A stretch of 34,716 nucleotides of DNA from Nitrospira sp. (GTDB lineage: Bacteria; Nitrospirota; Nitrospiria; Nitrospirales; Nitrospiraceae). Positions 14,484 to 17,935 of this stretch are shown here, in pieces. Within the stretch, counting starts at the first letter, position 1. Every line of letters starts with the position of its first letter. The translations under genes and the position numbers were made by a program. Below the pieces are notes generated by a model. That model did not search any database. It was given only the letters and a program-made list of their open reading frames with translations, and was not told the DNA's origin. Where the stretch lies: NCBI GenBank assembly GCA_029865225.1, contig JAOUHJ010000030.1, positions 1 to 34,716 on the forward strand, given 5' to 3'.

Positions 14484-14854
14484 GGTTCTCCTTCCGCTCT
14501 CCAACGATTGGGATTCTGCTCAAAAAAATGAACGCTGAATTATAGGTGAGGCACTGCGAGGAGTCAATTTCGCGTTCACAGCAACCATGACAGAAATTTG
14601 GATTCCATACTGATATAATTTGACCAGATGACTCCCGGCTTGAGGCCTTTTTGCTATCGACTGCCAAAACGCCACAAACCGTACTGTCAACTCCTAGTTG
14701 ACTTCTTTCTAAATATGCGAAATAGATAGTATGTCAATAAACCAATCAGCAAGGCTGTTGGCATCGAGCTTGCTGACCTCCAACGGTTGGCATACAACGG
14801 TAGATTCAATCGTGCGCAGGCTTGCAAGCGAGCCCTTAAGGAGGACCCATAGCT
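14484..14854. other. 371-bp intergenic region between divergent rpmH and the DUF4398 lipoprotein gene
   Basis: It holds the rpmH promoter (14539-14567) and the rpmH ribosome-binding site. Near 14686-14702 there is an inverted repeat GTCAAC-5 bp-GTTGAC whose right arm supplies a possible -35 TTGACT for the + strand lipoprotein gene. No good -10 follows at 17-19 bp, so that promoter is uncertain. I looked for DnaA boxes (TTATCCACA-like) because rpmH is often next to oriC, and found none. No RNA gene is recognisable. Confidence 0.5.
14539..14567 (-). promoter_or_regulatory. Sigma-70 type promoter of rpmH
   Basis: On the minus strand: -35 TTGACT (14562-14567), a 17-bp spacer, and -10 TATAAT (14539-14544). 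This is five of six and six of six matches at ideal spacing. Transcription would start near 14531-14533, giving a leader of about 50 bases that contains the AAGGAG ribosome-binding site of rpmH. It probably drives rpmH-rnpA-yidD-yidC and perhaps more of the downstream block. Confidence 0.8.
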
Positions 14855-15472
14855 ATGCAGAGCAGAGTATCCCGTGTAACCATCGCTCTCATGATCGTCG
14901 CGACAGCGGGATGTGCCGACCCGCCTACTGAACAAATCCAAGAAGCCGAGAAAGCGCTCAAAGATGCACGGGAGAGCGGAGCATCCACCTATTCCCCGGA
15001 CGAATATGCAAAGCTCGAAGGGACTCTCGATGCCATCAGGAAAGAGGTGTCGGAACAGGATGGAAAATTCGCCCTGTTCAGGGACTACGGAAAAGCACAG
15101 CAATTATCCGTCTCGGCGAAAGCCGACAGCGAACGAATAAAGGTGGCCACTGCGCAGAAGAAGGAAGAGGGCAGGGCCGCTGCCATGCAGGCCCAGCAAG
15201 TCGCTGAAGAAGCCGTGAGGGCAGCCCAAGAATTGGCGGCTAAAGCACCGGTGGGGAAAGATCGCGCCGCTGTGGAAGCGATTAAGAATGATATCGAGGG
15301 GCTCAAGTCATTGTTAAAACAGGTGCAAGTTTCCATCGACAAGGAAGATTATCCGGCGGCGCAGACACAGGCCAAGGCTATCAACGAGATGAGCCAGGGA
15401 GTTCAGAACGAACTCCAGCAGGCCCTGGCGAAGGTAGGAAGAGGCAAGTCGGCTCGTTCAAGCAGACACTAA
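14855..15472 (+). CDS. Coiled-coil lipoprotein, DUF4398-type
   Basis: A 205-residue predicted lipoprotein. The signal sequence (MQSRVSRVTIALMIV) ends in lipobox ATAGC, with Cys20 the lipidated residue; Ala-Asp follows the Cys. The remainder is Ala/Glu/Lys-rich and strongly helical. It shows DUF4398-like segments such as EAEKALKDARESGAS and YSPDEYAKLEGTLDAIRKE, and later AAAMQAQQVAEEAVRAAQEL. The tail is basic (GRGKSARSSRH). A strong AAGGAGG ribosome-binding site supports the start. Function in the family is not established. A lipid-anchored helical rod beside L,D-transpeptidases suggests an envelope spacer or peptidoglycan-linked role. It is the first gene of a four-gene + strand group. Confidence 0.82.
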   Translation: MQSRVSRVTIALMIVATAGCADPPTEQIQEAEKALKDARESGASTYSPDEYAKLEGTLDAIRKEVSEQDGKFALFRDYGKAQQLSVSAKADSERIKVATAQKKEEGRAAAMQAQQVAEEAVRAAQELAAKAPVGKDRAAVEAIKNDIEGLKSLLKQVQVSIDKEDYPAAQTQAKAINEMSQGVQNELQQALAKVGRGKSARSSRH

Positions 15473-15481
15473 CAGGCCGCC

Positions 15482-16615
15482 ATGGACGTAGGTCAGCTCA
15501 ACCGGCTGCTCACATCAGCTCTCTGCATGTTCTCCTTTGCCGGCTGCGTCCAGGCCGTGCCACCGGACCTCCTCACAGCTCTTGAATCCATCGACCAGGA
15601 TTTGATCGCGCTGCGCGCTCCAGAGACCGCACCCGAGGAGTATGGTTCGTTCGTGCGGCAGTGGATTGCTCTGAAAACGCGCGCCGAACTGGACGATGAC
15701 CTCATTCGATGGCCGTGGGAAACAAGCGAGCTCGAGAATGAGCTCAGGGGCTTATACGTCCGAGGTGAGAGGACTGTTTCCCAGCTCCATGATCGGAAAG
15801 TCGCTCGGCAGCAGCAGGCACAGTCCAAAGTAGAAGGGATCGAGGATCGACTTTTCCATCTCACATCTCAGGTTGGGGCCATCGACGGCCGTATCGTCTT
15901 GGGGGAACAGGTCGTTCAAACTCATCACCTTGTGAGACAAGCTCGCTCGTTCTTGGAAGCAGAAGATTACCAGCGAGCCCTCCATCTTGCTGAGCAGGCG
16001 GAACAAGGCCTTATGGACCAGACGACACGCCTAGTCGAAGAACTGGGACGGTATGCTGATCCGAAGCGGATCGCCTCCTGGCAAACCATGGCGCGACAGA
16101 CGATCGAGTGGTCGCGGGCCTACCAATCACCAGCCATTGTTGTGAGCAAAGCCGAGCGTGAGCTGACCCTCTACCTGAACGGACGCAAGGTGTTATCATA
16201 CCCTGTGCGATTGGGGTTCAACGGCATACGAGAAAAGCAGGTCCAAGGTGACGGCGCAACACCGGAAGGCCGATATCGCGTGACTGATAAGCGCGGGCCC
16301 GGGCAAACGCAATTCTATCGCGCCCTTGTGCTTGACTACCCCAATGCTGAGGATCGTCGCCGGTTCAACCTCTCCAAAAAGGCTGGGAGGATCGCTCCTG
16401 GAAGGGGTATCGGCGGACTGATCGAAATCCATGGTGTGGAGAACGAATCAGCTGAGCAGACGCTGGGTTGCGTCATGCTGGATAATCCCAACATGGCTGC
16501 CCTCTTTGAGCGTGTCACTGTTGGCACTCCGATCACCATCGTCGGTGCCTTAACCAAAACCAACGCCGTGGCGTTGGCCTTGTCTTCACTGACGCAGCAA
16601 AGAGAAGAGATCTGA
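15482..16615 (+). CDS. L,D-transpeptidase (YkuD) lipoprotein with variant active-site motif
   Basis: A 377-residue protein starting 9 bp after the DUF4398 gene. A hydrophobic signal ends in lipobox SFAGC (Cys22), so it is predicted to be a lipoprotein. Residues 30-210 are helical and charged. The YkuD catalytic domain spans about 217-355 (AIVVSKAERELTLYLNGRK..., DGATPEGRYRV). The active site has His317-Gly318 and Thr327-Leu-Gly-Cys330, with the nucleophile Cys330 present. The usual S/T-H-G-C reads TLGC, and the following Arg is replaced (CVML instead of CIRL). YkuD enzymes form 3-3 crosslinks or attach lipoproteins to peptidoglycan. The altered motif may change the acceptor, or reflect the YafK/ErfK-like spread of the family. 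Confidence 0.85.
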   Translation: MDVGQLNRLLTSALCMFSFAGCVQAVPPDLLTALESIDQDLIALRAPETAPEEYGSFVRQWIALKTRAELDDDLIRWPWETSELENELRGLYVRGERTVSQLHDRKVARQQQAQSKVEGIEDRLFHLTSQVGAIDGRIVLGEQVVQTHHLVRQARSFLEAEDYQRALHLAEQAEQGLMDQTTRLVEELGRYADPKRIASWQTMARQTIEWSRAYQSPAIVVSKAERELTLYLNGRKVLSYPVRLGFNGIREKQVQGDGATPEGRYRVTDKRGPGQTQFYRALVLDYPNAEDRRRFNLSKKAGRIAPGRGIGGLIEIHGVENESAEQTLGCVMLDNPNMAALFERVTVGTPITIVGALTKTNAVALALSSLTQQREEI

Positions 16616-16625
16616 ACAGAGGACT

Positions 16626-17264
16626 ATGAGTCGCGTCATTCTTGCTGGTACAGCAGTAGCGGTTCTTATCGTCTGGATCGCCATGGCTCCGGACGCCAGG
16701 ATTACTGTCTCCACCGCCTCACGGGCCGTTCATCGGCCCGTTGTTCGGGACGCATCAAGCTTACGTGCCCTGCAAGCTAAGTATAAGACGCTTTCAACAC
16801 AACTCGCCAAATTACAGCCAAGCCAACCATATATCTTGGTAGATACGGCGCGAAACCGGCTCTACGTCAAGCGTCACGGAGAGGTGGTTTTGGACGCTAT
16901 TGCCTCCACCGGCAGTGGAACTATTCTGGACAAACCCGGGGACGATGCTAATCAATGGATTTTCGATACGCCGCGCGGAGAATTCCTTGTGCAGTCGAAA
17001 CTGACGAAACCCACGTGGATCAAACCTGATTGGGCCTTTATCGAAGAAGGGATCGGGGTCCCGCAGAATGCGGCGGATCGTGCTGAGGAGGGTGTTCTCG
17101 GTGACTATGCCCTAGGCTTTGGGAAGGGGTATTTCATTCACGGGACCCTATACACACGATTGCTTGGGAAGAACGTGACTCATGGATGTATTCGCCTCAA
17201 CGATAGCGATCTTAAAGGCGTCTACACCCTCGCCCGTGTTGGGACGCCGATCATGATCTTTTGA
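16626..17264 (+). CDS. L,D-transpeptidase (YkuD domain), canonical active site
   Basis: A 212-residue protein with an N-terminal hydrophobic segment (about 4-20) that acts as signal or anchor, then a short helical linker (45-63) and a YkuD domain (about 68-212) starting YILVDTARNRLYVKRHGEV. The catalytic site is complete: His172 in IHG and Thr185-His-Gly-Cys188 with Arg190 (THGCIRL). It should crosslink meso-diaminopimelate residues or anchor proteins to peptidoglycan in the periplasm. It starts 10 bp after the preceding L,D-transpeptidase gene. Its stop TGA is read within the TTGA that supplies the next gene's start, so all three are probably one operon. Confidence 0.93.
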   Translation: MSRVILAGTAVAVLIVWIAMAPDARITVSTASRAVHRPVVRDASSLRALQAKYKTLSTQLAKLQPSQPYILVDTARNRLYVKRHGEVVLDAIASTGSGTILDKPGDDANQWIFDTPRGEFLVQSKLTKPTWIKPDWAFIEEGIGVPQNAADRAEEGVLGDYALGFGKGYFIHGTLYTRLLGKNVTHGCIRLNDSDLKGVYTLARVGTPIMIF

Positions 17265-17935
17265 TTCCTCTGAACGCGCAAACCGTCCATACAGCACTCT
17301 GTGTCCTGTTCCTGTTCCTTACCCCGATCACCAACAGTTGGGGCAAGGATCTCGAAGCCTTTCCTAACCTCAATTTCAGCGATCTGGCGAGTGTGAAAGA
17401 AGCCGCTCGGGTTTTGGAGGAAGAACTCAAACTTGCGGCCCGCCCTCAAACCTACGTCCTGATTGATCTTGCTGAAAAGACCATTCACATCAAGGGACGA
17501 GGGGTGAAACTGCATCACATGCCAATCGGCCAGTGGACTGTCAAATCCCGAGAAACATTGACCGGCGTTCACCGCTTGGTGGCTCGTCCCTCGGTCGTTC
17601 GTCGTAAGATTGAGCCCGGAAAGAGTGCGGAACAAGATCCGATCTCGCTGGCCGACATGCCGGCGGACTACGACTTATCGTTTGCGTCCGGGCTGACGAT
17701 CGTTGTAGCTTCCTCAGCCGGAAAGGACAGTCTTGTCCAGGGCATTGCCTTTATGGGGAAAGCGTGGTGGCGTCAGGTCAAAAACTGGGCCAGCGCCATC
17801 GGCCGGGACTCCTCGATACCGCCGGCTCATTTGGAATTGACGGTCTCCGTTGATCATGCACAGTCTCTCGCCTGGTCACTGGTCGATGGGATGGCTATCA
17901 TCATACGACGACCAGCCGATAGTGACGCATTCTGA
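17261..17935 (+). CDS. Exported YkuD-like protein lacking the catalytic cysteine (degenerate L,D-transpeptidase)
   Basis: A 224-residue protein starting with TTG at 17261, overlapping the previous stop by four bases (TTGA). No ATG or GTG lies in frame at the right place. The first 28 residues form a signal peptide (ALCVLFLFLTPITNSWG). Residues 57-85 (LAARPQTYVLIDLAEKTIH...) align by eye with the start of the neighbouring YkuD domain (QPYILVDTARNRLYV). The rest diverges and contains no H-G...S/T-x-G-C motif, and there is no cysteine at all in the mature chain. It cannot be an active L,D-transpeptidase. It may be a structural or regulatory partner of the two upstream enzymes. The YkuD relationship is an inference from a short match; position and length support it. 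Confidence 0.6.
   Translation: MIPLNAQTVHTALCVLFLFLTPITNSWGKDLEAFPNLNFSDLASVKEAARVLEEELKLAARPQTYVLIDLAEKTIHIKGRGVKLHHMPIGQWTVKSRETLTGVHRLVARPSVVRRKIEPGKSAEQDPISLADMPADYDLSFASGLTIVVASSAGKDSLVQGIAFMGKAWWRQVKNWASAIGRDSSIPPAHLELTVSVDHAQSLAWSLVDGMAIIIRRPADSDAF

Follow-up and report, generated by a model that had tools for sequence, protein, structure and literature searches.

Nitrospira and its relatives possess an old, operon-like four-gene cassette, A-B-C-D, and we propose that it serves for reversible covalent anchoring of the outer membrane, with A as the tether, C attaching it to peptidoglycan, B detaching it and D acting as a pseudo-enzyme partner. We consider the case for this function evenly balanced. 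The cassette is located at positions 14855–17935 of the window, i.e. the whole 34,716-nt contig JAOUHJ010000030.1 of Nitrospira sp. (GCA_029865225.1) that was analysed, with all four genes on the + strand:

14840..14844, + strand: GGAGG, likely ribosome-binding site of gene A, judged by sequence.
14855..15472, + strand: gene A, 205-aa DUF4398-like lipoprotein with signal peptide, invariant Cys20, helical body and Lys/Arg-rich C-terminal tail; proposed tether.
15482..16615, + strand: gene B, 377-aa lipoprotein with invariant Cys22, a helical domain homologous to A (about residues 10–191) and a DpaA-like YkuD domain (218–353).
16626..17264, + strand: gene C, 212-aa L,D-transpeptidase with N-terminal hydrophobic segment, helical arm and YkuD domain (68–211), IHG...THGCIRL.
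17261..17935, + strand: gene D, 224-aa exported protein with TTG start and a YkuD fold that has no catalytic His/Cys/Arg; proposed pseudo-enzyme partner of C.

Genes A and B are separated by 9 bp, B and C by 10 bp, while C and D overlap by 4 bp, bearing out the gaps of about 10 bp or overlap described in an initial sequence-only reading of this DNA. The cassette is flanked on one side by rnpA and yidC on the opposite strand, and on the other by the phosphoglucose isomerase gene (pgi), followed by a gene which we take to be pgl from its resemblance to 6-phosphogluconolactonase. Orthologues of the four genes are conserved across Nitrospira at 43–96% identity, hence these are not chance open reading frames. 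B and C are the only recognisable matches to the YkuD profile (PF03734) in the whole genome; other Nitrospira genomes have one to five YkuD genes each. The initial reading had counted three L,D-transpeptidase-like proteins, which stands as regards the fold, the enzymatic signature being carried by C only.

In the proposed mechanism, A would be sorted to the outer membrane, its helical body spanning part of the periplasm and its lysine-rich tail reaching the peptidoglycan. C would cleave D-Ala from the tetrapeptide stem and transfer mDAP to a lysine in the A tail, as LdtA/B/C do for Lpp. B, located in the same membrane and possessing a homologous helical body, would hydrolyse the A-peptidoglycan bond, as DpaA does for Lpp, while D may serve as a scaffold or regulator by pairing with either C or the substrate. 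The content, order and conservation of the genes, the enzyme classes of B and C by sequence, the A/B and C/D homologies and the loss of the motif in D are what we show; that A reaches the outer membrane and is the acceptor, that B is its eraser and that D is a partner of C are what we infer. A dedicated outer membrane-peptidoglycan system with Lpp-like logic had been suggested by the sequence-only reading, and fits the evidence including synteny, with the exception of the role it gave to B.

In loci fetched from genome records, A-B-C-D are found in order on one strand in 33/35 Nitrospira cases; one exception is cut by a contig end, and the other is a partial copy with a nearly complete copy on the same scaffold. 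The four genes are also contiguous and in order in 20/20 further loci read (families f1, f2, f5, f9, f24, f25 and f26), and the same order is seen in families f13, f16 and f17. Separation of the genes in close relatives, which had been raised as an objection to a single module, was thus not observed. Outside the home family f1, none of yidC, rnpA, pgi or pgl was found near the cassette, which nevertheless persists. We therefore rejected the idea that the gene order merely follows from a chromosomal region that has stayed unchanged. Two partial cassette copies are located on scaffold JABMDK010000023 (L037, L067), perhaps through duplication or an assembly fault.

D is present in 56/59 genomes of the genus and, using a D profile that includes distant members, in 106/395 genomes of the phylum, distributed over ten families. 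It is absent from the other 289/395, i.e. the cassette is missing from most of the phylum, and this counts against the anchoring model. All contigs returned by a scan of genome records are labelled Nitrospira, Nitrospiraceae or Nitrospirae, plus one uncultured Nitrosospira. When plasmid records were compared with B, the enzyme part alone was matched, at ≤36% among the matches listed. In family f10 (L101–L103), C homologues occur for which no neighbouring A, B or D was found, and in the L101 homologue the motif Arg is replaced by Ser (THGCVSV).

The initial reading is also to be amended in that profile comparison shows the proteins to be related in pairs: the A profile aligns with the non-enzymatic, N-terminal part of B (E 8e-12 over 181 columns) and the C profile with that of D (E 4.5e-6 over 109 columns), such comparisons being weak with Nitrospira-only alignments and strong once distant members are added. 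Distant B proteins are also matched at their N-terminal end by the A profile, in register and with hardly any composition bias. A is thus essentially B without the enzyme. C and D have in common a helical arm immediately preceding the first strand, a hint that the two may pair.

By profile and motif, C is a canonical L,D-transpeptidase. It scores 74.4 bits against YkuD (cut-off 23.4), and the full transpeptidase motif is present in the C protein of all four-gene loci read. The C profile scores LdtB at 43.5, LdtA at 42.0, LdtE (a 3-3 crosslinking enzyme) at 41.8 and DpaA at 3.4 bits.

Model and profile data indicate D has a YkuD fold and is a catalytically dead paralogue of C. D has no Pfam match, and a PDB sequence search with D found nothing. 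A D recognisable as YkuD by sequence was rejected, as no YkuD Pfam match was obtained for any of 19 D orthologues or for six distant ones. When an AF2 model of D (mean pLDDT 68) was submitted to Foldseek, the listed matches were L,D-transpeptidase-type proteins (best E 6e-5). Alignment of the model to 5bmq with VIA-align gave Z 8.2 and rmsd 3.5 over 112 residues, a Z that alone is near the level of common arrangements, but almost all of the matches listed are YkuD proteins, and the sequence profiles point the same way. As the initial reading had noticed for this locus, the catalytic motif is missing, and this applies to every D orthologue read, with L092 D keeping only the His. D as a chance open reading frame was rejected given its presence in 106/395 genomes. 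A literature search for YkuD together with pseudoenzyme found none.

It is conceivable, if unlikely, that D is an independent periplasmic protein with a YkuD fold that binds something else, in which case the system would consist of A, B and C only. D is indeed the fastest diverging of the four proteins (43–46% identity to distant Nitrospira orthologues, compared to at least 65% for C) and carries a long helical insertion. However, D is found directly after C in every complete cassette read, and both the 4-bp overlap seen here and the helical arm in common with C argue for a connection between the two.

B is a probable DpaA-like hydrolase, i.e. an eraser beside the writer C. It scores 69 bits against YkuD (cut-off 23.4), with catalytic His317 and Cys330, Lys252, and a Met at Cys+2. 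The closest solved relative of the enzyme part is E. coli DpaA (8IKR), followed by Csd6, with Pgp2 also next among PDB relatives. The B profile scores DpaA at 40.8 bits, as opposed to 22.7–25.3 bits for the E. coli L,D-transpeptidases, and a quick tree places B with DpaA and C with the L,D-transpeptidases (SH-aLRT 92), DpaA being a long branch. The Arg of the transpeptidase motif His...[ST]xGCxR is missing from all B proteins read: the residue at Cys+2 is Ala, Gly, Ser, Met or Gln, or Leu in genus g2, and never Arg. DpaA-like proteins likewise mostly have Ala or Asn at this position (PMC8263019). The position of DpaA Lys83, which binds mDAP (PMC10653827), is Lys in 28/28 aligned B proteins, and the catalytic His and Cys are kept in all B outside genus g2. 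Counting against the model, the DpaA-specific Arg108, Lys130 and Tyr131 are mostly not kept. Furthermore, B scores 29.4 bits against the DpaA equivalog NF040599, far below the curated cut-off of 365, and so is not filed as DpaA. On the profile scores, tree and motif, we rejected B and C being two enzymes of the same kind; the earlier view of B as a second crosslinking L,D-transpeptidase is thus replaced by its placement with DpaA. The latter is a hydrolase/amidase that detaches Braun's lipoprotein from peptidoglycan, and as B is closest to DpaA, the set would hold a probable eraser as well as a writer.

The L,D-carboxypeptidases Csd6, Pgp2 and Bd1075, which set curvature in other bacteria, are related to B and, as YkuD hydrolases, likewise have no transpeptidase Arg. 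By likeness to these, B could be an L,D-carboxypeptidase that trims tetrapeptides to tripeptides and C form 3-3 crosslinks, with A and D positioning the enzymes, so that the cassette would set spiral shape. We regard this as distinctly improbable. Csd6 and Pgp2 do follow DpaA among the PDB relatives of B, in L,D-carboxypeptidases the Arg is likewise replaced by Ala or Val (PMC8938487), and most Nitrospira are spiral (PMC6251164). However, DpaA outscores Csd6 for B, and two residues before the catalytic His, B has Glu as opposed to the aromatic Trp158 of the Csd6 D-Ala pocket. In addition, Csd6, Pgp2 and Bd1075 possess a C-terminal NTF2 domain; B ends 22–24 residues past the YkuD domain, and hence has no NTF2 domain, and has an N-terminal helical lipoprotein domain instead. 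A role in shape also gives no account of why the two lipoproteins have matching bodies, or of the basic tail.

Under the anchoring proposal, A provides the acceptor. A matches DUF4398 (PF14346) with E 4.1e-5 and 24.4 bits, below the Pfam cut-off of 27.9, and is therefore a relative under the curated line; a literature search for DUF4398 function found nothing. Cys20 of A and Cys22 of B are invariant after the signal peptide, with no Asp following either. The lipobox is imperfect in this species (TAGC, FAGC) and better in orthologues. A is predicted to be an outer-membrane-type lipoprotein, sorted to the outer membrane. In the four-gene loci, 26/42 A tails end in Lys and 37/42 in Lys/Arg, with 5.3 basic residues in the last 12; for 20 further orthologues, the corresponding counts are 13/20 and 15/20. 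Counting against the model, the last residue of A in the window itself is His, and several f2 and f5 orthologues are also without a terminal Lys/Arg. The acceptor lysine would have to be internal here, as is known for LimB of Coxiella (PMC12274547). The A copies outside the cassette, as well as that of L088, are without a Lys/Arg-terminated tail; in some genomes (L104, L105, L106) such a copy is a second A paralogue away from the cassette. The basic tail of A could also simply bind the wall electrostatically.

The same genome contains a DUF4398 lipoprotein followed by a DUF4398-OmpA fusion (G000:C67, L136:1873-3432). This pair has the layout of A and B in common, a rod alone followed by a rod with a wall-binding part, although the binding domain is non-covalent. 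It could favour plain wall crosslinking, in which C would act as a 3-3 crosslinking enzyme and B as a hydrolase of stems or crosslinks, with A as an unattached rod binding the wall by its basic tail, as could the near-equal C scores for LdtE (41.8 bits) and LdtA/B (42.0, 43.5), but we judge this a poor prospect because it does not account for the fact that in ten families C is accompanied by a rod lipoprotein and by a DpaA-type enzyme with this same rod, or for L088, a locus of A and C only.

Among the closest known counterparts to the proposed anchoring is the E. coli system of Lpp, LdtA/B/C and DpaA, which similarly combines a helical lipoprotein with basic C-terminus, an LdtA/B-type transpeptidase and a DpaA-type hydrolase. 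A is unrelated to Lpp in sequence, with no match to the Lpp profile (PF04728), and is about 2.6 times longer. A search of the whole genome with this profile also gave no match, the E. coli control being positive. In contrast to E. coli, where the parts are scattered, all are located in one cassette; furthermore, B has its helical body in common with the protein on which it presumably acts, and D is without counterpart. The genome contains 13 OmpA-domain matches, so other tethers exist, and this counts against the anchoring model.

Species without Lpp are known to tie other outer membrane proteins to peptidoglycan, such as LimB in Coxiella and bound beta-barrels in Brucella and Coxiella (PMC12274547). 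The proteins attached in these systems differ from A. We know of no eraser or dead paralogue encoded with LimB or the bound beta-barrels. The helical domain of B can also be compared to Borrelia BB0323, although the YkuD half of the B model is poorly modelled and only helical proteins were among the matches listed in a search with the model. In the B model, the helical domain can be superposed on almost all of the BB0323 domain (9qaa: Z 8.4, 156 residues, rmsd 4.5; 6rjw: Z 7.9, 160 residues, rmsd 4.4), bearing in mind that for helical bundles a Z under about 13 may reflect no more than an arrangement that is common. BB0323 has a role in cell fission and in the stability of the outer membrane, and joins its helical domain to a peptidoglycan-binding part (PMC5462797), which is LysM, as opposed to YkuD in B.

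A wider reading, which we put forward tentatively as possible, is that of a phylum-wide, independently built writer-eraser-tether system standing in for Lpp, with a lipoprotein anchor, a transpeptidase working with a dead paralogue, and a DpaA-like eraser borne on the helical domain that the anchor also has. If true, it would to our knowledge be the first case of an anchoring system encoded entirely within one cassette, and would provide the first pseudo-L,D-transpeptidase. The invariant dead paralogue would then show that L,D-transpeptidases can have pseudo-enzyme partners. It would also be the first candidate for how the Nitrospira outer membrane is held to the wall, these nitrite oxidisers having for the most part been described as possessing an enlarged periplasm (PMC6251164). 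Many bacteria that have no Lpp do have DpaA-like proteins, whose substrates there are an open question (PMC8263019). Here, the gene for such a protein lies next to those for a candidate substrate and for its proposed attaching enzyme, making this question directly testable.

Partial cassettes offer a further view of the system. Sister genus g2, of the same family, has B alone, still located between rnpA/yidC and pgi, and A, C and D thus appear to have been lost in place. The catalytic Cys is replaced by Ser in 10/10 of the g2 B proteins (L099, L100, L125–L132), with the His and its surroundings kept and the protein otherwise well preserved, and the two that were included in the tree nest among B from whole-cassette loci. 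Loss of the proposed substrate and writer together with the eraser nucleophile is what the anchoring model predicts; a switch to serine chemistry or to a binding role is possible for g2 B. In one genome of the same order, locus L088 consists of an A-C pair only. The L088 C motif reads THGCIQL, with Gln for Arg, and the A tail is not Lys-rich. Finally, the cassette shows decay in a 2-Mb Nitrospira genome (L107, L133; G047:C28), where A and B are gone along with the first half of C, and D is kept.
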